From: Acidobacteriaceae bacterium | Lineage (GTDB): Bacteria > Acidobacteriota > Terriglobia > Terriglobales > Acidobacteriaceae | DNA: 64,000 nucleotides | Assembly: GCA_003132405.1 (NCBI GenBank) | Contig: PKXQ01000093.1 | Span: forward strand, 1-64,000 | Direction: 5' to 3' | In this document: positions 13,592-41,235 of the stretch, piece by piece | How positions within the stretch are numbered: position 1 is the stretch's first letter | Layout: each line of letters starts with the position of its first letter | The notes under the pieces: model-generated | Seen by the model: the letters and a program-made list of their open reading frames with translations, nothing else | What the model was told of the DNA's origin: nothing | Database searches by the model: none | Program-made: the position numbers and the translations under genes

Positions 13592-13608
13592 TATGGCTCC
13601 TTACAGTT

Positions 13609-16640: not shown

Positions 16641-16659
16641 CTTACTCTCCACTTATCAG

Positions 16660-16866
16660 TCAGGAATTTCTTTTTGACGCAAACTTGAAGCAATAGGCTA
16701 AACCGAATATGAGTAATGCGGCTCCCCACCATACGTTGGCGTGCAAATGAAAAAGCACCACGCCGGGATTCGCCGGAGGGTTGATCAACTGATAGATGCC
16801 CGCGGCGAGGATCAGCGCGCCATTCACGGCTAGCGAAATTCCGATGAAGAACCAGATTGAAATCAT
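16660..16866 (-). CDS. Small two-TM membrane protein in the arabinose operon
   Basis: 68 residues with two hydrophobic helices (about 3-28 and 42-61), joined by a short PPANPGVVLFHLHANV loop and ending in a basic tail (KFASKRNS). It has a strong ribosome binding site (GGAGG) and sits 29 bp after the SSS symporter gene and just before the isomerase gene. No family is recognised. Position and topology suggest a small accessory or stabilising subunit of the symporter, which is an inference only. Confidence 0.7.
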   Translation of the reverse strand: MISIWFFIGISLAVNGALILAAGIYQLINPPANPGVVLFHLHANVWWGAALLIFGLAYCFKFASKRNS

Positions 16867-16895
16867 GCCGCTTGCCTCCAGATAATTGACAACCT

Positions 16896-18599
16896 TTACC
16901 AGAAAATAATATTGAGCACGAAAAACACCACGGTCACTATGGCTGCCCAGAAAAGCGGCTTCTGGTACAGCGGGATGTCGCCGACGGAGGGAACTTCCGT
17001 CAGGCCGTAGACTAAGCCAGTCAATGCCGTGTCAGGCAAGGGTTTCGTCGCCAAACTCACGACTAGGGTAACGATGACACAGACGATAAAGGACCAGAGG
17101 GCCTGGAACATATCCTGCGCCAGGCCTTTGGCGTGGGGAGAAAGCGCTACGTAACGAAGTGCCGCCGGATCGACCTTTACCCATGCCCACATGCTGATGG
17201 AGGAAAGCGTGCCGCAGAGCAGGCCCCAGAATCCGCCCGGGCCAGTGGCGCGCTTCCAGAGCATTCCTAAGACGACCGTGCCGAAGAGCGGGGCGATGAA
17301 GAAACTGAATAGGGCCTGGACGTAGTCCATGATGCTGGCAAATTGCATTACGAGATAGGCGGTCCCTACGCTGATTAGTACGCCGATTACTGTGGTCCAG
17401 CGGCCTACGTTGACGTAATGATGGTCGCTTCCGTTACTGTTGAAAAATGGACGATAGATGTCGTAGGTCCACACGGTAGTGAAGGCACTTACATTGCCTG
17501 CCATGCCGGACATGAAACCGGCGATCAGGGCAGTAACTCCCAGGCCTAACAAGCCTGGACCACAGTAACGTGCCAGCATAAGTGGAAGAACGTCGTTGTA
17601 ACTGTGGCCTCCAGTTACAGTAGCTACAGATTCCGGGACTAACTTCTCGGGTAAGACGGCCAGTCCAATGAGGCCGGGTAGAATTACTATGATCGGCACA
17701 AACATCTTGAAGGCGGCGCCAATGATGGGCGCCATTTCCGCGCTGCGAATATCTTTTGCGGCTAGGATGCGCTGGACGACCAGGAAGTCGGTGGTCCAGT
17801 AACCCATGGAGAGAATCGCGCCTAGTCCGAAAACAATGCCGACCCAATTGATACCCATGGGATTAGTCGAGAACGAGCCTAGACCGGACCAGAGATGAAC
17901 GTATTCCGACGATGCTCGTTGCGCGATTTGCAGTTTGAGGTTGGTCCAGCCACCGGCTTCATATAAGCCGAGAATGGGAATGAGCAGAGCGCCGGCCCAG
18001 ATGAGAAAAAATTGCAGCACTTCATTGAAGATGGCGGAGCGCAGGCCGCCGAGGGTTACGTAGATGGCGACGGTCAGCGACGAGACCCAGATGCTGAAAT
18101 TGATATCCCATCCGAGGACGATTTGCATGACCTTGGCCATGGCGAACATGTTGACGCCGCTCATCAGTACAGTCATGAAGGCGAAGGAAATCGCGGAGAG
18201 GGCTCGGCTGGGCTCACCGAAACGAAGTTTGAGGTAGCCGGGAACGGAGTGGGTTTTGGAGATGTAATAGAACGGCATCATGACGAGCGCGAGGAAAAGC
18301 ATCGCAGGGATGGCGCCGATCCAATACCAGTGTGTGGCCAGAATACCGTACTGGTAGGCCGATCCGGCCCAGCCCATCAATTCGAGGGCGCCCAGATTGG
18401 CGGAGAGAAAACTGAGACCGGCGACCCACGCCGTCATTTCACGGCCGGCCATGAAGAAATCTTCGCCGGTGTTGGCGCGGCCCTTTAAGTACCATCCGAT
18501 CGAAAGTACGAGGGCAAAATAAAAAACCACGATGACAACATCAATCGGAGCGAGACGGACGAGGTGGGCGGGAACATCGGTCGCGAGCAGCAAGATCAT
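16896..18599 (-). CDS. Sodium:solute symporter (SSS family), probable arabinose transporter
   Basis: Inner-membrane Na+-coupled sugar uptake protein of 567 residues with about 14 predicted TM segments. SSS/SGLT features include the N-terminal VVFYFALVLSIGWYLKGR helix, the GEDFFMAGREMTAWVAGLS segment, TLGGLRSAIFNEVLQFF, GYWTTDFLVVQRILAAKD (typical of SGLT-like sugar symporters) and the internal LIAGFMSGMAGNVSAFTTVW helix. It lies between araD (25 bp upstream) and the small membrane protein, which makes L-arabinose the most likely substrate. Confidence 0.92.
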   Translation of the reverse strand: MILLLATDVPAHLVRLAPIDVVIVVFYFALVLSIGWYLKGRANTGEDFFMAGREMTAWVAGLSFLSANLGALELMGWAGSAYQYGILATHWYWIGAIPAMLFLALVMMPFYYISKTHSVPGYLKLRFGEPSRALSAISFAFMTVLMSGVNMFAMAKVMQIVLGWDINFSIWVSSLTVAIYVTLGGLRSAIFNEVLQFFLIWAGALLIPILGLYEAGGWTNLKLQIAQRASSEYVHLWSGLGSFSTNPMGINWVGIVFGLGAILSMGYWTTDFLVVQRILAAKDIRSAEMAPIIGAAFKMFVPIIVILPGLIGLAVLPEKLVPESVATVTGGHSYNDVLPLMLARYCGPGLLGLGVTALIAGFMSGMAGNVSAFTTVWTYDIYRPFFNSNGSDHHYVNVGRWTTVIGVLISVGTAYLVMQFASIMDYVQALFSFFIAPLFGTVVLGMLWKRATGPGGFWGLLCGTLSSISMWAWVKVDPAALRYVALSPHAKGLAQDMFQALWSFIVCVIVTLVVSLATKPLPDTALTGLVYGLTEVPSVGDIPLYQKPLFWAAIVTVVFFVLNIIFW

Positions 18600-18624
18600 G
18601 GTTCGTTCTTGTCAGGATTCCTGC

Positions 18625-19365
18625 TCAGGATTCCTGTTTTTGTTTCTGGTCTCGATCATTAGTCGTGGGTTGCCCATTGGACTGTCCATAATATGCATCT
18701 TTGCCATGTTTTCGGAGGTAATGCTTGTTGTGCAGGGCGGTTCCCAAGGGCTGTGCGGTCGCATTAATGCCAAGCGTGAGATATGCCATGCGCGCGATTG
18801 ACTCGAGAATAACCGCGTTATGAGCGGCTTCGCGCGAGTCTTTACCCCAGGCGAAGGGCCCATGATTGGCGACCAAGATACCGGGTAAGGTCAGCGGATT
18901 AGCTGATTGCAAAGTGCGAACGATGACGTGGCCGGTATTCTTTTCGTAGTCTTCGGCAATTTCGGAGTCGGACATTTCGGGAGTCACAGGCACGGCGCCG
19001 TGGAAGTAATCGGCGTGAGTGGTGCCGAAGCATGGAATTGGTTTGCGGGCCTGCGCCCAGGCGGTGGCATATTCGGAGTGAGTATGGGCGATCCCGCCGA
19101 TTTCAGGAAATTGGTTGTAGAGCACGAGATGAGTGGGAAGATCGGAGGAGGGCCGCAGATGGCCATCGACGATGTTGCCGGCCAGATCGGTGACGACTAG
19201 ATGATCGGGGCGCAGGTCTTTATAGGGAACTCCGCTGGGTTTGATCACGACTAAACCTTCGGCGCGGGAGATGCCACTGGCGTTGCCGAAGGTGTAGAGG
19301 ACAAGCCCCTGCCGTACGAGTTCGAGGTTGGCTTCGAGGACTTGTTCCCTTAAACGTTGAAGCAT
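18625..19365 (-). CDS. araD: L-ribulose-5-phosphate 4-epimerase AraD
   Basis: Class II aldolase-fold Zn enzyme converting L-ribulose 5-phosphate to D-xylulose 5-phosphate. 246 residues matching E. coli AraD throughout: LREQVLEANLELVRQGLV at the start, FGNASGI, VIKPSGVPY, the Zn-binding HTHSEYATAWAQA, GTTHADYFHGAVP, NHGPFAWGKD with the third Zn His, and HKHYLRKHGKDAYYGQ. The usual protein ends here; this one continues for 18 Gln/Asn/Lys-rich residues. The stop codon lies in a direct repeat of CAGGAATCCTGA (about 18613-18636), suggesting a short duplication at the gene end. First gene of the operon, about 240 bp downstream of a strong promoter with palindromic operator. Confidence 0.95.
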   Translation of the reverse strand: MLQRLREQVLEANLELVRQGLVLYTFGNASGISRAEGLVVIKPSGVPYKDLRPDHLVVTDLAGNIVDGHLRPSSDLPTHLVLYNQFPEIGGIAHTHSEYATAWAQARKPIPCFGTTHADYFHGAVPVTPEMSDSEIAEDYEKNTGHVIVRTLQSANPLTLPGILVANHGPFAWGKDSREAAHNAVILESIARMAYLTLGINATAQPLGTALHNKHYLRKHGKDAYYGQSNGQPTTNDRDQKQKQES

Positions 19366-19852: not shown

Positions 19853-20695
19853 ATGAGCGAAAGCGATTCCCTGGTGCACTCGGAGAATCTGCCTATCGGG
19901 CGGGCGGGCGAGCTCCTTCATTTGCCGCGCGAGAAAGCAAAGTGGGAGTGGATGAGTTTCTTCGTACGGAGACTGGCTCCAGACGATGTTTATCGAGCGG
20001 AGACGAAGGGCGAGGAAGCAGCGTTTGTGTTGCTCGGCGGGACGTGCTTGGCGGATTGGGGGCAGGGCGCGCAGCGAATTGGGAAACGGAACAATGTGTT
20101 CGATGGATATCCTTATGCGGTGTATTTGCCCACAGGCAATGCGGTTAGTTTTACAGCCGAAACGGTTTGCGAAATTGCGGAATGCCGCGTGCCTTCGACG
20201 GCGCAATTAAAGCCGCGGCTGATTACTCCCGAGGATGTGGTGAGCAGTCTGCGGGGCGGCGGGAATGCTTCGCGGCAGATTGTGGATGTGATGACGCCGG
20301 CATTTCCAGCAGACAAACTGATTGTGGTTGAGGTTTACACTCCGGGGGGGAACTGGTCGAGTTATCCGCCGCATAAACACGATGTGCATAACCCTCCTGC
20401 GGAAGTCGATCTGGACGAAATTTATTACTATCGGATGAACAAAGAGAACGCGTTTGCGTTTCAACATTTGTATTCGGGGCAGGATGCGGCGGAGCTAACG
20501 GTGAAGACGCGAGATGGGGATGCGGTGCTGGTGCGGAGCGGATATCATCCGGTGGTGGCGGGGCCGGGATATGACATTTATTACCTGAATTTTCTGGCGG
20601 GATCTTCGCGGGTGATGGCGGTGACGGAAGATCCTCAGCACGTGTGGTTGAAGGCGACGTGGAAGGAAACGGATTCGCGGCTGCCGATGGTGTAG
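19853..20695 (+). CDS. iolB: 5-deoxy-glucuronate isomerase IolB
   Basis: Cupin-fold isomerase of inositol catabolism that converts 5-deoxy-D-glucuronate to 2-deoxy-5-keto-D-gluconate. 280 residues. Diagnostic C-terminal half: GGNWSSYPPHKHD with metal-binding His residues, EVDLDEIYYYRMN with the Glu ligand, GFQ-like FAFQHLYSG, GDAVLVRSGYHPVVAGPGYD and IYYLNFLAG, then DPQHVWLKATW. The gene has a good ribosome binding site (GGAGAAG, two bases before the ATG). It is separated from the next gene by 196 bp of palindromic repeats. IolD is encoded 3 kb downstream on the same strand. Confidence 0.93.
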   Translation: MSESDSLVHSENLPIGRAGELLHLPREKAKWEWMSFFVRRLAPDDVYRAETKGEEAAFVLLGGTCLADWGQGAQRIGKRNNVFDGYPYAVYLPTGNAVSFTAETVCEIAECRVPSTAQLKPRLITPEDVVSSLRGGGNASRQIVDVMTPAFPADKLIVVEVYTPGGNWSSYPPHKHDVHNPPAEVDLDEIYYYRMNKENAFAFQHLYSGQDAAELTVKTRDGDAVLVRSGYHPVVAGPGYDIYYLNFLAGSSRVMAVTEDPQHVWLKATWKETDSRLPMV

Positions 20696-20891: not shown

Positions 20892-22283
20892 ATGATGGGC
20901 CAGGGGACCAAGGTGGAATCGAGAACGGCTGCTGCGACCGTCGCGACTCCGAAGTTGAAGCGGGTGCTTGGGCTTTGGGACCTGGTTTATTACGGCGTGA
21001 TTTTGACTTCGCCGATCGCCGTGGTTCCGATGTTTGGCGAGGCGCAGGTGCTCTCGCATGGGCACGCGGTGATCACGCTGCTGGCCGCGATGGTGGCGAT
21101 GACTGCGACGGCGGTCAGCTTTGGACGGATGGCTACGGTGTATCCGTCGGCCGGGTCGGTTTATACCTATGCCAGCCGGGCGTTCAATCCGATGTTTGGA
21201 TTCGTCGTGGGCTGGGCGATGTTTCTGGAGTATCTGTTTCAGCCGCTGCAAAATAGTCTTTACGCCGCGCTTACGATTCAGCGGCTCCTTCCGCATGTTC
21301 CTTTCGCGTTGTTGTCAGCGGGCGCTGTGGGATTCATGACGCTGTTGTGCTGGTTTGGGATTCGGACTACGGCGCGCGCCAATGAAATTCTGCTTTTTAT
21401 GATGTCGATCGTGATGGTGGTTTTTATCGGCGAGGCGATCTGGTACATCATTGTGCACCATCATGTGATCGGGCTGATTTCGAGCCAGCCGATTTATGAT
21501 GCGCGAACTTTTAGCGTGAGGGCGATTGCGGCGGGGACGGCGCTGGCGGCTACGGTTTACATAGGGTTTGATGGGGTCAGCATTTTGGCGGAAGAGGTGG
21601 AGAATCCGCAGCGCAATGTGTTGCTGGCTTCGGTGCTGGTATGCGTGTTTACGGGGCTGTTCGCGGCATTTCAGGTTTATCTGGCGGTGCGAGTTTGGCC
21701 GGATTACCGGACGCTGGTGAATCCCGAAACGGCGTTTATGGATGTGGCTAGCGTCGTGGGCGGGTACAAACTTTTTGTTGGATTTGGGGCGGTGCTGCTG
21801 ATTTCGAGTTTGGCTTGCGGGTTGGCGGGTCTGTTGGGAGCGGTGCGTCTGCTTTATAGCATGGGACGCGACAATGTATTGCCGCGAAAAATTTTTGGAC
21901 ATCTGAATGCTGCGCGGGGCAATCCGTCTTATAACGTGCTGATCGCCGGTGTGCTCGCTTATGTGGGGACGCTGACGATGGGGTGGGAGCGGTCGGTTGA
22001 GATTTTGAATTTTGGCGCACTGATGGCTTTTATGGCGGTGAATCTGGCGGCGGTCAAGCATTTTGGATTTTCTCCGGGAATGGCGGGCAATCAGCATTTG
22101 GTGCTGGATGTGATTGTGCCTAGCCTGGGATTTCTTTTTTGCCTGGTAATTTTTCTCGGCTTGCAGAATTCGACGCTAGTGGCGGGCGCGATCTGGACGA
22201 TTGTGGGCACGGTGTATGTGGTTTTGAAGACGAAAGCGTTGGGGCAACCGGTGGTGATCGACTTCAGTGAATCGGGCAGTTGA
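20892..22283 (+). CDS. APC-superfamily amino acid/amine permease
   Basis: Inner-membrane transporter of 463 residues with about 12 TM helices. APC features include the N-terminal LGLWDLVYYGVILTSPIAVV helix, the SFGRMATVYPSAGSVYTYAS segment (the conserved Pro-Ser-Ala-Gly-Ser motif), FGFVVGWAMFLEYLF, and IGFDGVSILAEEVENPQRNV, typical of cationic amino acid and amine porters. The location between iolB and the MocD/MocE-like pair suggests an amino-containing substrate, for example an amino-inositol, but this is inference. A second in-frame ATG follows immediately (20895). No strong ribosome binding site is seen. Confidence 0.87.
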   Translation: MMGQGTKVESRTAAATVATPKLKRVLGLWDLVYYGVILTSPIAVVPMFGEAQVLSHGHAVITLLAAMVAMTATAVSFGRMATVYPSAGSVYTYASRAFNPMFGFVVGWAMFLEYLFQPLQNSLYAALTIQRLLPHVPFALLSAGAVGFMTLLCWFGIRTTARANEILLFMMSIVMVVFIGEAIWYIIVHHHVIGLISSQPIYDARTFSVRAIAAGTALAATVYIGFDGVSILAEEVENPQRNVLLASVLVCVFTGLFAAFQVYLAVRVWPDYRTLVNPETAFMDVASVVGGYKLFVGFGAVLLISSLACGLAGLLGAVRLLYSMGRDNVLPRKIFGHLNAARGNPSYNVLIAGVLAYVGTLTMGWERSVEILNFGALMAFMAVNLAAVKHFGFSPGMAGNQHLVLDVIVPSLGFLFCLVIFLGLQNSTLVAGAIWTIVGTVYVVLKTKALGQPVVIDFSESGS

Positions 22284-23870: not shown

Positions 23871-25730
23871 ATGACGCAAAGGCTGACTACTGCGCAGGCT
23901 ATCATACGATTTCTGACGGCGCAGTTTGTGGAGCGCGATGGCAGCCGGAATGCTTTTTTTGCGGGATGCTTTGGAATTTTTGGACATGGGAACGTCGCGG
24001 GAATTGGGCAGGCGCTACAGCAGAATCCCGATTTTCCTTATTACTTATGCCGCAACGAGCAGGCGATGGTGCATACGGCGGCGGCGTTTGCCAAGATGAG
24101 CAACCGGCTGCGGACGCTGGTTTGCACGACGTCGATTGGGCCGGGCGCTACGAATATGGTGACCGGGGCGGCGGGCGCGACGATCAATCGTATTCCGGTG
24201 CTGCTGTTGCTGGGAGACATTTTTGCGCGGCGGAATGTGGCTCCGGTGCTGCAGCAACTGGAGTCGACTTCGACGCAGGATGTGTCGGTCAACGATTGTT
24301 TTAAGCCGGTGTCGCGATATTGGGATCGAATTCAGCGGCCGGAGCAGATTCTTACGGCGTTGCCGGAAGTGATGCGTGTGCTTACTTCTCCGGCGGAGAC
24401 AGGAGCGGTGACGCTGGCGCTGCCGCAGGATGTGCAGGCGGAGGCGTATGACTTTCCGGAAGAATTGTTTCAGGCGCGGACTTGGGTAGTGCCGCGGGCG
24501 CGGGCGGATGCGGCGGCGTTGCAGCGGGCGGCGGAGTGGATTCGATCGGCGCGGAGACCGCTGATTATTGCGGGCGGCGGAGTGATTTATTCGGGCGCTA
24601 CGGAAGCGCTCGCTAGCTTTGCGGCGCGCACGGGGATTCCGGTGGGAGAGACGCAGGCGGGGAAGGGGGCGCTGAATTTCGATCATTCGCAGTCGGTGGG
24701 CGCGATTGGAGTGACGGGGACATTGGCGGCGAATCGGCTGGCGGCGGGCGCGGATTTGATTGTGGCGATTGGGACGCGGCACAGCGATTTCACTACGGCG
24801 TCGAAGACGGCGTTTCAGAATCCTGGCGTGCGGATGATCAATATTAATGTTGCGGAGTTTGATGCTGCGAAGCAGGCGGCGCTGCCGGTGGTGGGGGATG
24901 CGCGCGAGACGCTGGAGGAGTTATCCGCTGCGCTTTCGTCGTACCGCGTGGAGGAGAGTTATGCGGTGGAGATTGGGCGGCTGCGATCGGAATGGAGCGG
25001 TGAAGTTGATCGGATTTATGGGCGGCGGCATGGGCCTCCGCTTAGCCAGGGTGAGGTGATTGGGCTGCTGAACTCGAAGCTTGGTCCGCGCGACGTGATT
25101 GTGTGCGCGGCGGGAAGTTTGCCGGGGGATTTGCATAAGTTGTGGAGGACGCGCGATCCGAAGAACTATCACATGGAGTATGGGTATTCGTGCATGGGAT
25201 ATGAGATCGCGGGCGGGCTGGGTGTGAAGATGGCGGAGCCTAGCCGAGAAGTTTATGTGCTGGTGGGGGATGGATCCTATCTCATGATGGCGCAGGAGAT
25301 TGTTACTACGCTGCAGGAGAATGTGAAGCTCAACATTGTGATTTTTGATAATCACGGGTTTGGCAGTATTGGTGGGCTCAGTCGCGCTTGTGGGAGTGGA
25401 GGATTTGGGACTAAGTATCAGTATCGCGACTCTGGAAACGCGGGCGCGAATATTCCGGTGGATTTTGTTGCTAATGCTGCGAGCCTGGGAGCGCATGCGG
25501 TGCGGGTGCGGAGTTATGAGGAGTTATCGTCGGCGCTATCCGACTTAGTCTCGCAGACGCGGACGTCGGTGGTGGTGGTCGAGACGGATTATTACGACGG
25601 GGTGGGCGGATATGAGTCGTGGTGGGACGTTCCGATAGCCGAGGTGTCGGAGATGGAGGCGGTCGAGCAGGCGCGGCAGAAGTATGTCGAGGGTAAGAAG
25701 AAGGAAAGATATTTCTGGCCTTCCGAGTAG
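23871..25730 (+). CDS. iolD: 3D-(3,5/4)-trihydroxycyclohexane-1,2-dione hydrolase IolD
   Basis: Thiamine-diphosphate-dependent ring-opening hydrolase of inositol catabolism that makes 5-deoxy-D-glucuronate. 619 residues in the acetolactate-synthase fold: N-terminal Pyr domain with the ThDP-activating Glu in YYLCRNEQAMVHTAAAFAK, the IolD-specific FFAGCFGIFGHGNVAGIGQA, central Rossmann-like domain (about 190-330), and C-terminal PP domain with the ThDP/Mg motif GDGSYLMMAQEIVTTLQEN and FDNHGFGSIGGLSR. The ribosome binding site GAGG precedes the ATG. It heads a tight gene string with an IolG-like dehydrogenase, a transaldolase-family enzyme and a second dehydrogenase. Confidence 0.96.
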   Translation: MTQRLTTAQAIIRFLTAQFVERDGSRNAFFAGCFGIFGHGNVAGIGQALQQNPDFPYYLCRNEQAMVHTAAAFAKMSNRLRTLVCTTSIGPGATNMVTGAAGATINRIPVLLLLGDIFARRNVAPVLQQLESTSTQDVSVNDCFKPVSRYWDRIQRPEQILTALPEVMRVLTSPAETGAVTLALPQDVQAEAYDFPEELFQARTWVVPRARADAAALQRAAEWIRSARRPLIIAGGGVIYSGATEALASFAARTGIPVGETQAGKGALNFDHSQSVGAIGVTGTLAANRLAAGADLIVAIGTRHSDFTTASKTAFQNPGVRMININVAEFDAAKQAALPVVGDARETLEELSAALSSYRVEESYAVEIGRLRSEWSGEVDRIYGRRHGPPLSQGEVIGLLNSKLGPRDVIVCAAGSLPGDLHKLWRTRDPKNYHMEYGYSCMGYEIAGGLGVKMAEPSREVYVLVGDGSYLMMAQEIVTTLQENVKLNIVIFDNHGFGSIGGLSRACGSGGFGTKYQYRDSGNAGANIPVDFVANAASLGAHAVRVRSYEELSSALSDLVSQTRTSVVVVETDYYDGVGGYESWWDVPIAEVSEMEAVEQARQKYVEGKKKERYFWPSE

Positions 25731-25781
25731 TAAGTCGGATTGGTAAGTCGGGGTGGTGAGAAGTTTTTGGAGAAGGATGGG

Positions 25782-26843
25782 ATGGGTAAGTTAGGGATTG
25801 GCGTGCTTGGCGTGGGGGCGATGGGCAGGCGGCATGCGGAGAATATCCGGAGGCTGGTGCCGGAGGCGCGGCTGATTGCAGTGGCCGACGTTGCTCTCGA
25901 GCAGGCACGGCGGGTTGCAGCGGAGTTGGAGATTGAGCACGGATTTTCCGGGCTCGACGAGATGCTGGAGCGCAAAGATATTGAGTGCGTGGTGATTGCG
26001 ACTCCGGATAAATTTCATGCGGAAGCGATTCGGGCGGCGGCTGCGGCGGGGAAACATATTCTTTCGGAAAAGCCGCTGGCTTTGAATCTTGACGACGCGC
26101 TCTCGGCGCTCGATGCGGTCGCAAAGGCGGGTGTGTATTTGCAGATGGGATTCATGCGGCGTTATGACCCGGGCTATGCGTCGGCGATGAAGCGGATTGA
26201 GGCGGGGGAGATTGGCGAGCCGGTGGTTTTCAAGTCGATTGGGCGGGATAAGGATGCTCCGCCGATTTCTTCTTATGCCTCGAAGCTGAATGGCATGCTT
26301 TTTTATAACAATACGATTCACGATTTCGATTTGGCGCGCTGGCTGATGAAGGATGAGGTTAGCGAGGTGCAGGCTTACGCGACGGTTGCGATTCGGCCGG
26401 AGATCGCGAAGTTTGGCGACATTGTGGCGGGAGTGGTGAATCTGAAATATGGACGCGGAGCGATTGGCAATATCGAATCGTATGTACAGGCGGTGTATGG
26501 CTATGATGTGCGGACGGAGATTATGGGATCGAAAGCATCGATCCTGATCGGGAGTCTGCAACAGACGCCGGTGACTTTTTTGACGGACGAGGGCGGAACG
26601 CAAAGGCTGGCGGATCATTTCTTGTCGCGGTTTGACGATGCTTATGTGGCAGAGATGCAGGACTTTGCGCAGAGCATACTGAAGGATCGGGCTCCGCGAG
26701 TTACGGGCGAGGATGGATTGCGAGCGCTGGAGATGGCGGTGGCGGCGGAGAAATCTTATCTTCAATCGGCGCCTTGCAGGGTTGGCGCTGAAGGTCAGCA
26801 TGCAACTGGCGGACGCCCCGGGAATCGTGCGAGGGAGTCATGA
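25782..26843 (+). CDS. iolG: Gfo/Idh/MocA oxidoreductase, inositol 2-dehydrogenase (IolG) type
   Basis: NAD(P)-dependent dehydrogenase expected to oxidise an inositol to an inosose, 353 residues. Rossmann motif GVLGVGAMG near residues 7-15; catalytic Lys97 in SEKPL; the IolG-type GFMRRYDPGYA near 123-132; and IHDFDLARWL with catalytic His180. The residue four before this His, Asp172 in B. subtilis IDH, is Asn176 here, whereas the close paralogue at 38926-39948 keeps Asp176 in the same position. The ATG at 25782 has GGAGAAGG just upstream and matches the paralogue's start. The C-terminal 20 residues extend beyond the paralogue. It overlaps the next gene by 4 bp (ATGA). Confidence 0.88.
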   Translation: MGKLGIGVLGVGAMGRRHAENIRRLVPEARLIAVADVALEQARRVAAELEIEHGFSGLDEMLERKDIECVVIATPDKFHAEAIRAAAAAGKHILSEKPLALNLDDALSALDAVAKAGVYLQMGFMRRYDPGYASAMKRIEAGEIGEPVVFKSIGRDKDAPPISSYASKLNGMLFYNNTIHDFDLARWLMKDEVSEVQAYATVAIRPEIAKFGDIVAGVVNLKYGRGAIGNIESYVQAVYGYDVRTEIMGSKASILIGSLQQTPVTFLTDEGGTQRLADHFLSRFDDAYVAEMQDFAQSILKDRAPRVTGEDGLRALEMAVAAEKSYLQSAPCRVGAEGQHATGGRPGNRARES

Positions 26844-27934
26844 CACGAGTAACTACTACTTATAAGAGTCCATTGCATGAGATGACGCAATCGACGCCGA
26901 CTTGCTTGTGGAATGACTCGGCCTCGATCAAGGAACTTAGTTACTCGATGGAACATGGTGGGGTGGGAGCGACTTGCAATCCGGTAATTGTGCTGGGAGT
27001 GCTGAAGCAGGAGATGGGGACGTGGAAGAAGCGGATTCGCGTGCTGATTGACGAGCTGCCGACGGCTACGGAGGAAGAGATTGGATGGCGGCTGGTGCGA
27101 GAAATTTCGGTGAATGCGGCGCGATTGTTGAAGCCGATTTTTGATGCGCAGCGGGGGCGGAATGGAAGGTTGTCGATCCAGACTGATCCGCGGTTTTATC
27201 GCGACACAGAGGCGATCGTGCGGCAGGCGGAGGAGTTCGACGGGCTCGCGCCGAATATGATTGTGAAAATTCCTGTGACGCGGGCGGGGATTCCGGCGAT
27301 TGAGGAGGCGACTTATCGCGGGATCAGCATTAACGCTACGGTTAGTTTCACGTTGCCGCAGTGCATTGCGGTAGCGGAGGCGGTGGAACGCGGGCTGTCG
27401 CGCCGCGAGAAGGAAGGCCAAGACATTGCGAGCATGGGGCCGGTGTGCACGATCATGGTGGGACGACTGGATGACTGGCTAAAGGCGGTCGCAGAAAAAG
27501 AAGGGATCACGATTGATCCGGGATATATGGAGTGGGCTGGGGTGGCGGTGTTTAAGAAGGCGTACAGGATTTTTCGCGAGCGCGGGTATCGGATACGGCT
27601 GCTGGCGGCGGCGTTTCGCAATCACATGCACTGGAGCGAATTTATTGGAGGGAATGTGGTGATTTCTCCGCCTTACTCTTGGCAGGTGCGGTTGAATGCC
27701 AGCGATGTTGAGGTGCGATCGCGGATTGACGAGCCGGTGGAGCCGAGGATTGTGGAGGAATTGTCGCGAAAATTTGCAGATTTTCGCGGCGCTTATACGG
27801 AGGGCGGATTGCCGGTGGAGGGATTTGATTCGTTTGCGCCTACGCGGCGGACGCTGCGGCAGTTTATTACGGCTTGTCATGATCTGGATGGGCTGGTGCG
27901 TGATTTCATGCTGCCGAATCCGGATGGGGTGTAG
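26840..27934 (+). CDS. Transaldolase-family Schiff-base aldolase with altered catalytic residues
   Basis: Class I aldolase-fold protein of 364 residues. Transaldolase signatures: TCLWNDSAS with Asp26, GATCNPVI (Asn47-Pro48), the Schiff-base lysine Lys143 in MIVKIPVT, and GISINATVSFT. Compared by eye with E. coli TalB, the acid-base Glu96 is replaced by Gln114 (SIQTDPR versus STEVDAR), as in fructose-6-phosphate aldolase, and the Phe178/FSA Tyr131 site is Met207 (TIMVGRLDDW). It is therefore probably an aldolase rather than a transaldolase. The gene is translationally coupled (ATGA) to the IolG-like gene and lies in an inositol operon that lacks iolC and iolJ, so cleavage of a C6 keto-deoxy acid or related intermediate is a possible role. 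This is inference. Confidence 0.82.
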   Translation: MTRVTTTYKSPLHEMTQSTPTCLWNDSASIKELSYSMEHGGVGATCNPVIVLGVLKQEMGTWKKRIRVLIDELPTATEEEIGWRLVREISVNAARLLKPIFDAQRGRNGRLSIQTDPRFYRDTEAIVRQAEEFDGLAPNMIVKIPVTRAGIPAIEEATYRGISINATVSFTLPQCIAVAEAVERGLSRREKEGQDIASMGPVCTIMVGRLDDWLKAVAEKEGITIDPGYMEWAGVAVFKKAYRIFRERGYRIRLLAAAFRNHMHWSEFIGGNVVISPPYSWQVRLNASDVEVRSRIDEPVEPRIVEELSRKFADFRGAYTEGGLPVEGFDSFAPTRRTLRQFITACHDLDGLVRDFMLPNPDGV

Positions 27935-28040: not shown

Positions 28041-28102
28041 AAAGGCAGGTTTTTCACCAGACTGTTAAAGGGCGGATTTTAGATTGAGTGAAAGGATGGC
28101 AC

Positions 28103-29131
28103 GTGGCTCGTTCTAAGCGGGTGGGATATGCGGTGGTGGGGATGGGGTTCATTGCGGAGACTTCGGTTTTGCCGGCTTTCAGGGAGAGCGCGAAGGGCAA
28201 GCTGGTTGCGCTGGTTAGTCACGATTTGAAGCGGGCGAGGCAGATGGGCGCGAAGTTTGGGGTGAAAGATTGCTATTCGTATGAAGATTACGATCAATGC
28301 CTGAATCATCCTGAGGTTGACGCGGTTTTTATTGCTTCGATTAACGGAGAACATGCAGAGCAGACGATGCGCGCGGCGGCGGCGGGAAAGCATGTGCTTT
28401 GCGAGAAGCCGCTGGCGAACACGGTGGAAGAATGCCGGCGCATGGTGGAGGCTTGCAGGGAAAATCGCGTGCTTCTAATGACCGCTTATCGCAAATATTT
28501 TGAGCCGGGGAGCGTGGCGCTGAAGAAGCTTGTTATTACGGGAAAGCTCGGGCGGTTGCGACACATGTTTTCGACTTATACGGAGGCGGTCGATCCAGCG
28601 AAAGTGAAATGGCAACTGAAGCGGCGGCGGGCTGGCGGCGGATCGCTGATGGATATTGGTATCTATTGTGTCAACACCATGCGCTGGCTGGCGGGAACGG
28701 CGCCGATCGCTGCAACGGCGCATGCGTGGACGGATGATGCAAAGCGTTTTGCGGAGGTTGAAGACAGCATCGCATTTCGGCTGACGCATCCAGAGGGGTT
28801 GGTTTGCCAGGGAACTTCGAGCTATAGCGCGAAGGCGGCTTCGTTTGTGCAAGTGCATGGGGACGAGGGGTGGGCGGCATTGAATCCGGCATTTGCGTTT
28901 GAAGAGGAGCGGCGGTTGTTTGGCAAGATTCAGGGACGATGGTTTGAAGAAAAATTCAAAGTGATCGATGAATTTGTGTTGGAGATTGATCATTTCGCGG
29001 ACTGTATACGGCGGGGGCGTGGGCCGAAGGCTGACGGTGTGGAAGGGTTGCTGGACCTGGCGACGATTGAGGCGATTTATCGGTCGGCGAGTGAGAACCG
29101 GACGGTGGCGGTTGAGAAGATAGCCGGATGA
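28103..29131 (+). CDS. Gfo/Idh/MocA oxidoreductase, glucose-fructose oxidoreductase-like (type B copy 1)
   Basis: NAD(P)-dependent oxidoreductase of 342 residues. Rossmann motif VVGMGFIAE near residues 11-19, catalytic-Lys motif CEKPLA near 100-105, TAYRKYFEP, and the GFOR-type catalytic segment GGGSLMDIGIYCVNTMRWL. The GTG at 28103 was chosen: AAAGGA lies six bases upstream and the product then starts like its paralogue at 40147-41172 (MA..KRVGYAVVG). The two share most motifs, including AFAFEEERR and IDEFVLEIDHFADCIR. A repeat-filled 168-bp gap separates it from the aldolase gene. Its likely job is oxidation or epimerising redox of an inositol or sugar derivative. Confidence 0.88.
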   Translation: MARSKRVGYAVVGMGFIAETSVLPAFRESAKGKLVALVSHDLKRARQMGAKFGVKDCYSYEDYDQCLNHPEVDAVFIASINGEHAEQTMRAAAAGKHVLCEKPLANTVEECRRMVEACRENRVLLMTAYRKYFEPGSVALKKLVITGKLGRLRHMFSTYTEAVDPAKVKWQLKRRRAGGGSLMDIGIYCVNTMRWLAGTAPIAATAHAWTDDAKRFAEVEDSIAFRLTHPEGLVCQGTSSYSAKAASFVQVHGDEGWAALNPAFAFEEERRLFGKIQGRWFEEKFKVIDEFVLEIDHFADCIRRGRGPKADGVEGLLDLATIEAIYRSASENRTVAVEKIAG

Positions 29132-29379: not shown

Positions 29380-29436
29380 TCAGGCTAATCGTTTTTGACT
29401 AGGAACAGCACACCGTGTTTCCGGAGGGGGAAACCT

Positions 29437-32400
29437 ATGGCGAAGCGCACCTGTTTCGTAGCGAGTCTGGTGGTCTGTGCGGTGTTGACGTTTTTCGCAG
29501 CGCAGGCTGGTATGGCGCAGCTGACGACGGGCGGCATTGTCGGGACGGTTACGGATGCGACGGGTTCGAGGGTACCGGGCGTGACGGTGACTGCGACGGA
29601 AGTCACGACCGCAACCGCGACTGCTGTGACTAGCGATGCCGGGGGAGAGTACAGCATTACGCCGCTGAAGATTGGTCAGTACACGGTGACGTTTGAGAAG
29701 GCGGGATTTCAGCGAGTCGTGCAGACGAATGTGACGCTGGATATAGGACAAGTGCTTCGGGTGGATTCAGCTCTGAAGGTGGGCGCGGTAACGCAGACGG
29801 TAGAGGTGGACGCTGCGCCTCCGCTGCTGGAGACGGAGACCTCTTCGCTGGGGACGATTGAAACGGAGCAGCGGATTGTGGAGCTGCCGTTGAACGGACG
29901 AAATTTCTTCAAGCTGGCATATCTTGGGCCGGGCGCGAATGCGGGCGCTTCGGGAACGAGCGCGGGGGCCGGATCGACGGACAATAACCGGCCGGGCAAC
30001 TCTCTATCGGTAAATGGCCTTCGCATCTTCGACAATAACTATCTGCTGGATGGCTTCGACAACAACGAATTCGGCAACGGAACGGTCGTCATTCAGCCTC
30101 CGCCTGATTCGATTCAGGAGTTCCGCGTGGAGCAGAGCTCGATGAGCGCGGAGTTTGGGCGCGGCGGCGCGATGGTGAACATTCAGCTGCGCACGGGAAC
30201 GAATCAGATTCATGGCGAGGGGTGGGAGTTCATTCGCAACAATCATCTGGATGCGCTGAATTATTTTGCGCCGGGGCCTACGCCGTTTCAGAGAAATCAA
30301 TATGGCGGGCAGCTGGGCGGTCCGATCGTGAAAGATAAGATGTTTATCTTTGGATCGATTCAGCGGTCGGATATTCGCGAGGCGCAACCGTTCGTCAGTA
30401 CGGTTCCGACCGTGGCGGAGCGAGGAGGAGATTTTACGGCGCTGGGCGTGCCTCTAGTCGACCCTTACACGGGTGGGCCTTTCCCGGGCGCGACGAGTCC
30501 ATATGTAATTCCGGGCGATGATATCAACACCACGGGACAGAACATTGTGAATCTGTTTCCTATGCCAACGCCGGGAAATACCAGTCTCACGAATAATTTC
30601 GTCTATGACGGAAAGTACAAGTTTGATGAGACGGCGGTGGAGACACGTTTCGACTACAACATATCGAACAAGGACCGTTTCTTCGTTCACTATGCGATCG
30701 CTACGCCGGTTGCGACCAATCCGTCATACTTACCGGGCGTTGATGCGGGAGCCGAATCTGGAGGATCGAGCAATCTGAAGGACCGGGTGCAGAGCTTCGG
30801 CGCCGACTTGACGCGCATCGTCCGGCCCAATCTGGTCAACGATTTTCGCGCAGGGTTTGTGCGCTATCGCGACGGCACGTTGCCTCTTGACGAGGGAACG
30901 AATCCGACGGAAGCTCTGGGCATTCCGAATTCCAATCGCGGCGGCAACAGTTCGGGATTGGCCAAGCTGTCGGTTTCGGGATATCAGCAACTGGGCGACT
31001 CGTTGTGGGTTCCGGAGACGATAGTCGAAAATATTTTCCAATTGGCTGACACGGTCAGCTGGACTCATGGCAAGCACACGATTAAGTTCGGCGGCGACTT
31101 CCGGCGGCAGCAGAGAAATTTCTTTCAGCAGACAGCGCCTTCGGGGTGGTTCCAGTTCAGCGGAAACTACACGGGGGTCTCGTTGGCCGATACCTTGCTG
31201 GGAATTCCGCAATACGCATTTCAGGATCACCTGAATGGAAGCGATCCGACGCGCTACTTCGACATCGCGGAATTTATACAGGACGATGTTCGTGTGCGTC
31301 CGAACCTGACGTTAAATCTAGGTTTGAGGTATGAAGTCAGTTCGCCGGCGAATGGGCCGAAGGTCGGGAACTTTAATCAGACGACGGCGATTGTTGTGTC
31401 GTCGATCGAGCCGAACGGTGTGCCGCGGGCGGGAGTGGGTTTTGATTTTCGCGATTGGGCGCCGCGACTGGGATTTGCCTGGTCGGCGCTCCCGAAGACG
31501 GTGGTGCGCGGGGCTTTCGGCATCTTCTATGCGGCGGAGGGAAATATATTCGACGACCTGGGATTGAATCCGCCGAATCTGGTGATTGCGCTCAACCGAA
31601 CGTACCCCACTTCTGGGGAGTCGCCGAGCCAGTTGGCGACTCAGTTGGTTTCTAATGGCTTCCCAGCAACCATTCCGACGGTGGATCCGGATAACCCTTC
31701 GGGCACGGTGCGAACTACGGGGCCGGTGCGGAAGATCCCAAGAATTTACGAATGGAATCTTTCGGTGCAAAGGGAGCTAGGTTCGAACTGGCTGGTGCAG
31801 GCTGGGTACGTGGCTTCGAAGAGCAGCAACCTTTTCGATCATGAATCCTCGAATCTGAATCAACCCTTGCAGCCGCTGGATACGAACTTCAGCAGTAACC
31901 CCGCGTTGGATCCCTTGAACACGGGGAACTACGGGCGACCTTACTTCGACGTGCGGCCTTTTCTGACGACTGTGCTGCCGCTTGACGTGGCGCGACTGAG
32001 CATGTTCTATAACTCGTTCCAGGCTTCGGCAGAGCATCGATTTTCGAAGGGATTCAATGTTCTTGCGTCTTATACGTATGCAAAATCGCTGGGCACAGCC
32101 GACGGCAACGTGCAGCAGTGCGATGTGCAGAACGCGCATAATATCGCGGCGGAAAGAGGACCGACGACCCCGGACTTCCGTCACCAGTTGACGATCAGTT
32201 ATGTGTACGATTTGCCTTATGGCAAGGGGAGGCAATTCGGGGGATCGTCGAGCAAAGTGGCGCAGGCGGCGCTCGCCGATTGGCAGGTCAGCGGCGTTAC
32301 TTCGATACACAGCGGCGAAGCGTTTAACGCGCAGATGGGCAGCGATATTACGAATACGGGCTCGGCGAACCCGCGGCCGAATCAGATTCACAATCCATAT

Positions 32401-32850
32401 GACTTCTCGTTTGATGTAGCCGAGCAGGCAGCGCTTGGGTGCAGCCGTCCCGGCCATCAGACGCTGGATTGCTGGTTTAATCAGGCTGCTTTTGAAGCGC
32501 CTCCTTTGGCGCCGGGTCAAAGCTTCTCGCATGAGTTTGGAACGGTGGAGCGGGCGGTGTTGCGCGGACCCGATTATATAGATTTCGATTTCTCGATCTA
32601 TAAGACGTTCGCGCTGAGCGAGAGATTTCACCTCACTTTCCGTTCTGAGTTCTTCAATCTCTTCAACCATCCTAACTTCTGGCTGCCGAATATGGGGTCG
32701 GGCGGAGGAAGCAGCGGAGTTGGATACTTGAACGTCAGCTGCTCGGTGGGTTCATCGACTTGTCCGGCTCAGCCCGGCGGCGCGGCGATCACGCAAACTC
32801 TGCCGGATGCTCAACGGGAGATTCAGTTCGGGCTTAAGCTGGCGTTCTAA
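29437..32850 (+). CDS. TonB-dependent receptor, Oar-like, with carboxypeptidase-regulatory N-domain
   Basis: Outer-membrane transporter of 1137 residues. Signal peptide (residues 4-28, ending GMAQ), an N-terminal CarboxypepD_reg-like domain (TTGGIVGTVTDATGSRVPGV, about 30-115), a plug-like domain (ELPLNGRNFFKLAYL, NNYLLDGFDNNEFGNG, VEQSSMSAEFGRGGAMVNI), and a long beta-barrel ending in the outer-membrane C-terminal signature FGLKLAF with terminal Phe. This is the acidobacterial type of sugar or polymer receptor. The ATG at 29437 follows an excellent GGAGGGGG ribosome binding site. Promoter and LacI-type operator lie upstream. iolE is next downstream, pointing to uptake of an inositol derivative or a glycoside containing it. 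Confidence 0.92.
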   Translation: MAKRTCFVASLVVCAVLTFFAAQAGMAQLTTGGIVGTVTDATGSRVPGVTVTATEVTTATATAVTSDAGGEYSITPLKIGQYTVTFEKAGFQRVVQTNVTLDIGQVLRVDSALKVGAVTQTVEVDAAPPLLETETSSLGTIETEQRIVELPLNGRNFFKLAYLGPGANAGASGTSAGAGSTDNNRPGNSLSVNGLRIFDNNYLLDGFDNNEFGNGTVVIQPPPDSIQEFRVEQSSMSAEFGRGGAMVNIQLRTGTNQIHGEGWEFIRNNHLDALNYFAPGPTPFQRNQYGGQLGGPIVKDKMFIFGSIQRSDIREAQPFVSTVPTVAERGGDFTALGVPLVDPYTGGPFPGATSPYVIPGDDINTTGQNIVNLFPMPTPGNTSLTNNFVYDGKYKFDETAVETRFDYNISNKDRFFVHYAIATPVATNPSYLPGVDAGAESGGSSNLKDRVQSFGADLTRIVRPNLVNDFRAGFVRYRDGTLPLDEGTNPTEALGIPNSNRGGNSSGLAKLSVSGYQQLGDSLWVPETIVENIFQLADTVSWTHGKHTIKFGGDFRRQQRNFFQQTAPSGWFQFSGNYTGVSLADTLLGIPQYAFQDHLNGSDPTRYFDIAEFIQDDVRVRPNLTLNLGLRYEVSSPANGPKVGNFNQTTAIVVSSIEPNGVPRAGVGFDFRDWAPRLGFAWSALPKTVVRGAFGIFYAAEGNIFDDLGLNPPNLVIALNRTYPTSGESPSQLATQLVSNGFPATIPTVDPDNPSGTVRTTGPVRKIPRIYEWNLSVQRELGSNWLVQAGYVASKSSNLFDHESSNLNQPLQPLDTNFSSNPALDPLNTGNYGRPYFDVRPFLTTVLPLDVARLSMFYNSFQASAEHRFSKGFNVLASYTYAKSLGTADGNVQQCDVQNAHNIAAERGPTTPDFRHQLTISYVYDLPYGKGRQFGGSSSKVAQAALADWQVSGVTSIHSGEAFNAQMGSDITNTGSANPRPNQIHNPYDFSFDVAEQAALGCSRPGHQTLDCWFNQAAFEAPPLAPGQSFSHEFGTVERAVLRGPDYIDFDFSIYKTFALSERFHLTFRSEFFNLFNHPNFWLPNMGSGGGSSGVGYLNVSCSVGSSTCPAQPGGAAITQTLPDAQREIQFGLKLAF

Positions 32851-32988: not shown

Positions 32989-33891
32989 ATGGCGATTCGC
33001 GTAGCTAATGCACCGATCAGTTGGGGGATCATGGAGCATGTCGAGCTTCCGGCTGGTTATCCTTATGAGAGGGTGCTGGATGAGATCAAGGCTGCAGGAT
33101 ACTCGGGGACGGAGCTGGGTCCGTACGGATTTCTTCCCGCCGAGTCGCCTATCCTCCGGAGCGAACTGGCTAAACGATCGCTTACGCTGTGTTCGGCGTT
33201 TGTGGATATCGAACTGGGCAATCCAGGGAGTCTCGCAGATGGACTCGCTTTTGTGGCGCGCTCGGCTCGGCTGATCAGCGATGCGGGAGCGCGGCTGCTG
33301 ATTCTTTCCGACAAAGTGATGCCTGACAGGAATGCGACGGCGGGACGGCGGCGCGAGGCAAACCAGTTGTCATGGAACGATGCGCAGTGGGAGGCTGCGC
33401 AGGCCACCATCAACTCGGTGATTGCGCTGTGCAAGGCGGTCGGGCTTAGAGTAGCGTTTCACCATCACGCGGGGAGTCATGTGGAAACGCCGGAGGAGAT
33501 CGATCGGCTTTTTGCTTTGTTTCCGTCCGATCAACTGGGTCTGTGTCTGGACACGGGGCATTATGTGTATTGCGGCGGAGACACAGTGGCGTTTCTGGAG
33601 AAGCAGGTGTCGCGAGTGTGGTGCGTGCACTTGAAGGATGTGTATGAAGCGAAGGCGGAGCAGGCGCGTACTGCGCGCATGAATTTTCACGCGGCGGTGC
33701 GGCACGGAATTTTTGCGCCACTGGGGAGGGGCGACATCGATTTCCGCACCGTGGTTTCGCTTTTGCAAAAAGGACAATTTGAGGGCTGGGTGGTGGTGGA
33801 GGCGGACGTGCTGCCGGGCGGGGTGGGTGCGGATGCTCCTCTGGCCAATGCTATCGCGGGACGGGAGTATCTTCGGCTGCTTGGGGTGTAA
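32989..33891 (+). CDS. iolE: IolE/MocC-like inosose dehydratase (sugar phosphate isomerase/epimerase fold)
   Basis: TIM-barrel enzyme of 300 residues, expected to dehydrate an inosose to the trihydroxycyclohexanedione that IolD cleaves. IolE-type motifs: APISWG at the N-terminus, GYSGTELGPYGFLP, a metal-ligand region VAFHHHAGSHVETPEEIDRL, LCLDTGHYVYCGGD, and VWCVHLKDV, followed by GRGDIDFRTVV and a final Glu in WVVVEADV. The related MocC of rhizopine catabolism belongs to the same family, so an amino- or methyl-inosose substrate is possible. It sits between the TonB receptor and the LacI regulator genes. Confidence 0.87.
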   Translation: MAIRVANAPISWGIMEHVELPAGYPYERVLDEIKAAGYSGTELGPYGFLPAESPILRSELAKRSLTLCSAFVDIELGNPGSLADGLAFVARSARLISDAGARLLILSDKVMPDRNATAGRRREANQLSWNDAQWEAAQATINSVIALCKAVGLRVAFHHHAGSHVETPEEIDRLFALFPSDQLGLCLDTGHYVYCGGDTVAFLEKQVSRVWCVHLKDVYEAKAEQARTARMNFHAAVRHGIFAPLGRGDIDFRTVVSLLQKGQFEGWVVVEADVLPGGVGADAPLANAIAGREYLRLLGV

Positions 33892-33993
33892 CTCACGGAG
33901 CGGGTTCCACGCAGTTACTTACACTGATCTTCTGCTATCCTCAGGTGAGTTACTTCGCCAAGGCCTTTTTTTGGGTCTTGATTGACCGAAGAT

Positions 33994-35082
33994 ATGGCTC
34001 CAGAAAAAAAGACACGTAAACGAAAAGCAAATAAGGCGCCGAGTATTTACGACGTCGCCAAGGAAGCCCGCGTCTCCGTTTTCACTGTCTCGGCGGTGGT
34101 GAACGGGAAGAGTCACGTTGGCAAGGCGCTGAAGCAGCGCGTGGATGCGGCGATTCAGAAGCTGAACTACAGGCCAAACCTGCTGGCGCGGAGTTTGGCG
34201 GCGCGGCGGACGCACACCATCGGCATCGTGGTGCCGGATATCTCCAATCCATTTTTTCCGTTGGTGGTGCGCGGGGCGGAAGATGCGGCGCAGAAGCATG
34301 GATACAACATTCTGCTGTGCGATAGTGATGACCGGCCGGAGCGCGAGGAAGAATGCCTGGAGGTGTTGATGGCCAAGCGCGTCGACGGCATTCTGCTCAC
34401 GAAGGCGCCGGGGACGTTTCGTCCGGCGCTGCGGCAGTTGATCGACGACGCGAAAATTCCGTTTGTGCTGCTGATGCGGACTTATCCCGACTTAACTAAG
34501 GATGCGGTGCTGACGGATGATTACAAGGGCGCGTATGAGGCAGTGTGCCAGTTGGCGCGAGCGGGGCATCGGCGAATTGGACTGATGGGCGGCCCGATGA
34601 CGATCAGCAATGGGCGGGAGCGGTGGAAGGGATTTCGCGACGCTCTCGAAGCTAATGGATTGACGCACGAACCTGAGCTGGTGATTCAGGGCGACTATCG
34701 CATCGAGTCGGGCTATCGCGGCGGGCACGCGCTGCTTTCGCGAAGTCCGGATGGAATTTATGTTGCGAACTATCTGATGACGGTTGGGTTGTTGAAGGCG
34801 GCGGAGGAGATGGGGATGCGCTGCCCGGAGGATTTCGGATTGGTGAGTTTTGACGATTATCCGTGGCTCGCGGTGTTTCGTCCGAGACTGACTACGGTGG
34901 AATTACCGAAATATCAGATTGGATTTGAGGCCACGGAAATGCTGCTGGCACGGATCAAGAACGAACCCACTCGCGGCGGGACTATAAAACTTGCGCCGGA
35001 GCTGCATGTGCGGGAGTCTTGCGGGTTTCAGCTGCGGCCTGGCAAGAATCTGGCTGACGTGCGCAATGAAGCCAGAGGTTAG
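33994..35082 (+). CDS. LacI-family transcriptional regulator
   Basis: DNA-binding repressor of 362 residues. After a basic N-terminal tail the LacI HTH reads PSIYDVAKEARVSVFTVSAV, then the hinge helix region NYRPNLLARSLAARRT and the periplasmic-binding-protein-like domain (TIGIVVPDISNPFFPLVVRG; VDGILLTKAPG; RRIGLMGGP; GLVSFDDYPW). The likely operator is TAAGCGCTTA, present at 29368-29379 and 43801-43810 at two divergent ends of this locus. The ATG at 33994 is preferred; an in-frame TTG at 33982 would add four residues. The effector is probably an inositol derivative or catabolic intermediate. Confidence 0.93.
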   Translation: MAPEKKTRKRKANKAPSIYDVAKEARVSVFTVSAVVNGKSHVGKALKQRVDAAIQKLNYRPNLLARSLAARRTHTIGIVVPDISNPFFPLVVRGAEDAAQKHGYNILLCDSDDRPEREEECLEVLMAKRVDGILLTKAPGTFRPALRQLIDDAKIPFVLLMRTYPDLTKDAVLTDDYKGAYEAVCQLARAGHRRIGLMGGPMTISNGRERWKGFRDALEANGLTHEPELVIQGDYRIESGYRGGHALLSRSPDGIYVANYLMTVGLLKAAEEMGMRCPEDFGLVSFDDYPWLAVFRPRLTTVELPKYQIGFEATEMLLARIKNEPTRGGTIKLAPELHVRESCGFQLRPGKNLADVRNEARG

Positions 35083-38870: not shown

Positions 38871-38940
38871 ATCATCAAGTACTGCCCCACTCAAAAATCG
38901 TTAAGTACAGCGCCGACCAAAATCGTTAAGTGCGCTTGCG
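38868..38940. repeat. Three tandem ~25-bp units (AAAATCGTTAAGTAC...)
   Basis: Units at 38868-38892, 38893-38918 and 38919-38940 with the core AAAATC(G/A)T(T/C)AAGT. The third unit contains the stop codon (38926-38928) of the dehydrogenase gene on the minus strand. Confidence 0.6.
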
Positions 38941-39948: not shown

Positions 39949-39969
39949 GATGTTTCCTCGCAGACTCTT

Positions 39970-40135
39970 GCCTCAGCGGCTAAAGCCGCTGTTGTTAACA
40001 GGCTTTATCGCAGCGCTGAAGCGCTGCGCCGCCCAGGGCAAAAACTGAATCAAAACTTATTAGCGAACTGCAAGAGCCGCGTTCTTAGTGGGTCTTGCCG
40101 GCACGGCTGAAGCCGTGCCCTTTCAAAACGATTTG
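39970..40135 (+). repeat. Composite REP-like repeat, copy D, plus a GGCACGGCTGAAGCCGTGCC hairpin
   Basis: Hairpin 1 CAGCGGCTAAAGCCGCTG (about 39974-39991), hairpin 2 GCAGCGCTGAAGCGCTGCGCC (40010-40030) and, about 70 bp on, a third perfect palindrome GGCACGGCTGAAGCCGTGCC (about 40101-40120) followed by CTTTCAAA. The third type also occurs near 20803 and 46619. Confidence 0.75.
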
Positions 40136-40146
40136 TGAGATAACTT

Positions 40147-41172: not shown

Positions 41173-41235
41173 CTAGTTCCCTCTTCTTTTTTCGTCTTCT
41201 TGTTTCGTGGGGCGTTCTGCACTTTCCTTTCGGGA

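Follow-up and report, generated by a model that had tools for sequence, protein, structure and literature searches.

The gene at 26840 to 27934 on the forward strand, here called TAL, belongs to the transaldolase/fructose-6-phosphate aldolase (FSA) family and is proposed to encode the carbon-carbon cleaving enzyme of inositol catabolism in a form that needs no kinase. It would act on unphosphorylated 2-deoxy-5-keto-D-gluconate (DKG), the product of IolB, and would stand in for the kinase IolC as well as for the DKG-6-phosphate aldolase, whether of the IolJ, DUF2090 or Cgl0159-like type. That TAL cleaves unphosphorylated DKG, by a lyase or a transfer route, can be held with good confidence in the absence of biochemical data. 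A replacement cleaving step had been put forward in the original prediction and is supported by the missing kinase and aldolases, by conserved linkage to iol genes and by an invariant glutamine at the acid-base site, the enzyme activity itself being inferred.

The TAL gene and its inositol cluster

TAL lies in a window (the whole stretch of DNA analysed, 64,000 nucleotides of an Acidobacteriaceae genome) with the following features around it.

19853 to 20695, forward: IolB, 5-deoxy-glucuronate isomerase (TIGR04378, 288 bits, above cut-off), whose product is the proposed TAL substrate
20892 to 22283, forward: transporter of the amino-acid-permease family, recurring in related iol/TAL clusters
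23871 to 25730, forward: IolD, trihydroxycyclohexane-1,2-dione hydrolase (TIGR04377, 921 bits, above cut-off)
25740 to 26843, forward: IolG-like inositol 2-dehydrogenase (TIGR04380, 334.5 bits, cut-off 355)
26840 to 27934, forward: TAL, 364 amino acids, transaldolase/FSA fold, proposed DKG aldolase (or transaldolase)
28088 to 29131, forward: second Gfo/Idh/MocA dehydrogenase, kept beside TAL in close relatives
29395 to 32850, forward: TonB-type outer-membrane barrel with a carboxypeptidase-like N-domain, probable uptake receptor
32989 to 33891, forward: IolE-like inosose dehydratase (TIGR04379, 195 bits, under the cut-off of 290)
33982 to 35082, forward: LacI-family regulator, kept next to TAL in relatives

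The earlier description of this region as an inositol operon holds for iolB, iolD, iolG and the iolE-like gene, all on the forward strand, with the nuance that other genes are interspersed, namely the AA_permease, a desaturase, the second Gfo/Idh and the TonB-type receptor. The claimed coupling of TAL to the IolG-like gene is visible as an ATGA shared by the TGA stop of the upstream gene and the ATG start of TAL. Elsewhere in the window, an arabinose-type cluster (12449 to 19365, reverse strand), divergent from the iol genes, contains an AraD-like epimerase, a ribulokinase, a Fucose_iso_C-domain isomerase, an SSF transporter and an aldose epimerase. Positions 38926 to 42534, also on the reverse strand, contain another IolG-like gene (327 bits) and another Gfo6-like dehydrogenase, together with a DegT aminotransferase of a family which recurs beside TAL in relatives (L069, L094, L097 and others) and suggests that aminated inositol derivatives may be used.

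In a Pfam scan the TAL protein matches a single family, TAL_FSA (1.7e-37), and falls outside PF01116, PF09863 and PF22649, so it is not a member of the IolJ, DUF2090 or Cgl0159-like aldolases. Its best NCBIfam match is a transaldolase model, yet all transaldolase and FSA cut-offs are missed by a wide margin: 119.9 bits against 367 for PRK03343, 75.9 against 233.75 for TIGR00876, 53 against 396.2 for TIGR00874 and 40.5 against 245.95 for TIGR00875 (FSA). The closest solved relative is the transaldolase of Corynebacterium glutamicum (3r5e, 5.6e-21). The comparison with TalB and FSA that the original prediction proposed as a check was carried out on an AlphaFold model (pLDDT 93.9) and returned a TalB-type fold, with Z scores of 39.4 for the gonococcal transaldolase 3clm and 37.9 for 3r5e; TalB scores about 32, sulfofructose transaldolase about 22 and FSA 21.

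The source genome (5.7 Mb) is 88.8% complete, and gene absences therefore lean on relatives too. Both iolC and iolJ are missing from the window, as first noted, and neither was found in a search of this incomplete assembly, where the best PfkB protein reaches 131.9 bits with the IolC model (cut-off 300). A hidden iolC is ruled out within the completeness of the genome, this match being far under the cut-off, as are the generic PfkB matches of about 100–160 bits seen in most genomes. Likewise, no member of the IolJ family (PF01116), of DUF2090 or of the Cgl0159-like aldolases (PF22649) was detected at this completeness. The downstream enzyme MMSDH/IolA, in contrast to these, is observed in the source genome (C137:49724), and MMSDH occurs in 21 of 22 genomes.

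Active site and proposed reaction

The residues of note in TAL are Lys143 (Schiff base), Asp26, Asn47, Gln114, Thr167, Met206, Arg209 and Arg260. Across 81 aligned members, positions D26, N47, Q114, K143, N165, T167, T204, M206, R209, A257, A258 and R260 are observed to be invariant, so the retention of Lys143 and Asp26 noted at the outset is correct and extends to the whole subfamily. The equivalence of Gln114 with Glu96 of TalB, also part of the original prediction, was confirmed by running a 66-residue TAL query first with Gln and then with Glu at this site. The Gln version finds the TalB E96Q crystal chains 9qpk, 4rz5 and 4rz6, with wild-type TalB not recovered within an E-value of 0.1, while the Glu version finds wild-type TalB (1onr) and not the E96Q mutants. 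The methionine placed at the Phe178/Tyr131 site had been misnumbered as Met207 and is Met206.

Relative to TalB, therefore, the Asp, Asn, Lys and Thr residues are kept together with both phosphate-binding arginines (R209 and R260), the role of TalB R181, an arginine of this site, being described in PMC3962226, while Glu96 is changed to Gln, Phe178 to Met and Ser226 to Ala. TAL meets the FSA criterion of Gln at the acid-base site but does not possess Tyr131 of the FSA catalytic-water triad, which is Met206 in all 81 members. Swapping the residues by which the catalytic water is positioned converts aldolase into transaldolase and the reverse (Stellmacher 2015, cited in PMC13259622).

TAL would be a class I (Schiff-base) aldolase of transaldolase fold, its substrate, the bond cleaved and the fate of the C3 unit all being inferred. 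Viewed as a ketose, DKG is a 5-deoxy-hexulosonate with D-threo (3S,4R) configuration at C3/C4, as deduced from the structure of D-gluconate, and these would be the centres that FSA and transaldolase handle; FSA and TalB F178Y are (3S,4R) enzymes (PMC3962226). Lys143 is predicted to form an imine with the C5 keto group, with Arg209 and Arg260 holding the C1 carboxylate where TalB holds phosphate. Retro-aldol cleavage between C3 and C4 would then give malonate semialdehyde, on which IolA/MMSDH acts, together with a C3 ketone unit, which may leave as free dihydroxyacetone or pass to glyceraldehyde-3-phosphate.

Between these two fates the evidence mildly favours the lyase, with release of free dihydroxyacetone, because the invariant Gln114 is the FSA state at the acid-base site. 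The transfer route, a sub-case of the main claim that is tentative but still a real contender, would make TAL a true DKG transaldolase, moving the dihydroxyacetone unit to glyceraldehyde-3-phosphate and so giving fructose-6-phosphate and malonate semialdehyde. Free dihydroxyacetone must be phosphorylated, and a Dak1 kinase was missing in 18 of the 22 genomes with TAL (the search covered Dak1 only and not glycerol kinase), which counts against the lyase, as does the replacement of FSA Tyr131 by Met, whereas transfer needs no kinase. The retention of both TalB arginines agrees with transfer, and sulfofructose transaldolase performs such a transfer with a phosphate-free, C6-anionic ketose (PMC12890257). 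That enzyme, however, appears to keep Glu, inferred only from a score that rises by 0.9 bit when Glu replaces the query Gln, the behaviour of known Glu enzymes, and both the Gln of TAL and the Ala at the Ser226 position also speak against transfer.

Members of the subfamily are known from Acidobacteriota, Chloroflexi/Dormibacterota metagenome-assembled genomes, Verrucomicrobiota, Acidimicrobiaceae, Spirochaetaceae and Anaeromyxobacter. In addition, two full-length diverged paralogs have Gln at the acid-base site, one 37% identical (L261, contig G468:C39, 9228 to 10256) and one 29% identical (L262, contig G322:C476). The former is a neighbour of an SDR gene and of PDH-type E1/E2 genes, a hint that other pathways may contain more aldolases of this type.

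Linkage to inositol genes and exchange with IolC

Conserved linkage of TAL to iol genes in relatives, the lack of which the original prediction had named, together with intact iolC and iolJ elsewhere in the genome, as grounds for its refutation, is strong. Among 150 genomes of the GTDB family, 22 carry TAL and 22 carry iolD, with 17 holding both. In 89 TAL loci, iolD is found in 48, iolB in 50, iolE in 45 and MMSDH in 25; at least one of iolB, iolD, iolE and MMSDH (iolA) is present in 64 of the 89, and in 33 of the 40 loci that span at least 18 kb. MMSDH mostly occurs in one or two copies per genome, so the 25 linked cases are not due to chance. IolC, DUF2090 and class II FBA (the IolJ family) were found in none of the 89 loci. 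Unbiased clustering of neighbours recovers iolG, iolD, iolB, LacI, iolE, the TonB-type receptor, MMSDH, transporters and dehydrogenases as conserved around TAL. The gene order iolA-TAL-iolD, almost without gaps, is observed in Chloroflexi assemblies (L135, L148, L158, L162), with iolB next where the contig continues, while iolE-TAL-iolB occurs in Acidimicrobiaceae (L125, L129) and TAL-iolB-iolD-iolA in genome G322.

TAL and IolC are furthermore observed to exclude one another. Among 30 iolD-bearing Acidobacteriota genomes of at least 90% completeness, 19 have TAL without a true IolC, 8 have IolC without TAL, 3 have neither and none has both (Fisher p 2.8e-5, uncorrected for relatedness). The three genomes with neither (G175, G195, G350) belong to one genus and hold IolD-like genes that pass the family threshold. 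Inspection of two of them (G195 and G350, loci L244 and L245) showed the IolD-like gene to stand alone, without further iol genes within 10 kb; it probably has another function despite the iolD name and no bearing on the exclusion. IolC, the IolJ family, DUF2090 and Cgl0159-like aldolases were not found in nearly all TAL-bearing relatives, although genome G059 holds a stand-alone DUF2090 protein.

The exchange is also seen in place. Genome G011 has the order iolG-iolE-Cgl0159-iolC-lacI-iolD-iolB and G112 the order iolG-TAL-lacI-iolD-iolB, such that IolC and the Cgl0159-like aldolase occupy the slot of TAL in an otherwise collinear operon. In G011 the Cgl0159-like (PF22649) gene lies between iolE and iolC (L079, 7845 to 8927). 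Of the 8 IolC genomes, 4 have a PF22649 protein, and the TAL-bearing genomes searched have none, a co-occurrence that suggests the Cgl0159-like protein to be the DKG-6-phosphate aldolase partner of IolC, for which no paper was found; the remaining IolC genomes presumably rely on some other aldolase.

This exchange bears on an unlikely alternative, in which some unrelated kinase such as a generic PfkB would phosphorylate DKG and TAL, acting on the phosphorylated form, would replace only the IolJ-type aldolase. The retained arginine pair of the phosphate site, the PfkB-family proteins of most genomes (including the 131.9-bit match of the source genome) and a PfkB-like gene in 4 of the 89 TAL loci are compatible with it, but the other 85 loci, and likewise the compact iolA-TAL-iolD operons, have no PfkB kinase, and the swap puts TAL in the position of IolC and aldolase together.

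Some genomes depart from the general pattern. Anaeromyxobacter oryzae, the sole exception to mutual exclusion seen, carries TAL, adjoining IolG and a rhizopine-type binding protein, about 14 kb from a canonical IolC-DUF2090 cluster. In the near-complete genome of Paracidobacterium acidisoli (G035) MMSDH touches TAL and iolD is nowhere in the genome, TAL is present and iolD absent in the near-complete G130, and in strain KBS 146 MMSDH is one gene from TAL with no iolD within 10 kb. TAL may also serve another route in G035 and G130, or the cleavage may be the same but fed from a different upstream route. The loci L075/L166 and L169 of cultured Acidobacteriaceae have MMSDH adjacent to TAL or one gene away and no iolD nearby, together with an IolM-like alcohol dehydrogenase, Gfo/Idh and SDR genes, a set that may belong to another polyol route with malonate semialdehyde as its end point.

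The genomes without iolD, and the coexistence in A. oryzae, lend some support to another unlikely reading, that TAL serves another inositol-linked branch, for an isomer or related polyol, and that unrecognised proteins supply the functions of IolC and the aldolase. Against this, TAL is the only conserved candidate beyond the known cluster genes in iolD-bearing genomes, and it touches iolA and iolD. That TAL is an ordinary central-metabolism transaldolase which happens to lie in sugar clusters has the fold and top NCBIfam match in its favour but is very improbable and was rejected, since two Glu-type transaldolases (in a 388-residue and a 972-residue frame) are encoded elsewhere in the source genome, besides the score far under every transaldolase cut-off, the specific iol linkage and the exclusion with IolC.

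Relation to known enzymes and significance

Of the known enzymes, FSA (FsaA/FsaB, EC 4.1.2.-) shares with TAL the TAL_FSA fold, the Schiff-base Lys, Gln at the acid-base site and, if the proposal is right, D-threo chemistry on a phosphate-free donor. It differs in its length of about 220 residues and its Tyr131, against the 364-residue, TalB-like chain and Met206 of TAL, which unlike FSA sits in iol operons with DKG as proposed natural substrate. TalB (EC 2.2.1.2) and the long PRK03343/tal_mycobact type are nearest in fold and length. The working analogy is sulfofructose transaldolase (SqvA/SftT, BmSF-TAL), an enzyme of the same fold recruited to split an unphosphorylated hexulose with an anionic C6, although it is a short, FSA-size decamer, apparently with Glu at the acid-base site, whose substrate bears a sulfonate rather than a carboxylate and whose aldehyde product is sulfolactaldehyde. 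IolC with IolJ, DUF2090 or a Cgl0159-like aldolase acts at the step proposed for TAL, after IolB and before IolA, but these systems are of unrelated sequence families, need ATP and, with one exception, do not occur together with TAL.

The literature search found no publication that connects a transaldolase with inositol catabolism, subscription papers not being covered. A large survey of inositol utilisation counts iolC among four genes regarded as core and essential (PMC9430895), and the authors of GapMind proposed DUF2090 as an alternative aldolase, leaving 8 of 15 inositol users without IolJ or DUF2090 (PMC9007349). Because iolC is treated as core, and IolJ, DUF2090 or Cgl0159-like proteins as the cleavage step, genome surveys would score bacteria with TAL as inositol non-users or as incomplete.

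If the proposal is true, TAL could account for part of the GapMind aldolase gap, and one enzyme in place of kinase and aldolase would alter the energy balance of the pathway. It would also be the second natural case, after sulfoglycolysis, of a transaldolase-fold enzyme cleaving a phosphate-free anionic ketose. With reasonable confidence, TAL would define a kinase-free inositol branch in which unphosphorylated DKG is split, the C3 unit possibly passing to glyceraldehyde-3-phosphate to give fructose-6-phosphate, as a counterpart of the sulfo-transaldolase route, and which would be common among Acidobacteriota, Dormibacterota/Chloroflexi and further soil bacteria. In many soil bacteria, TAL probably shortens the textbook inositol pathway by one step.
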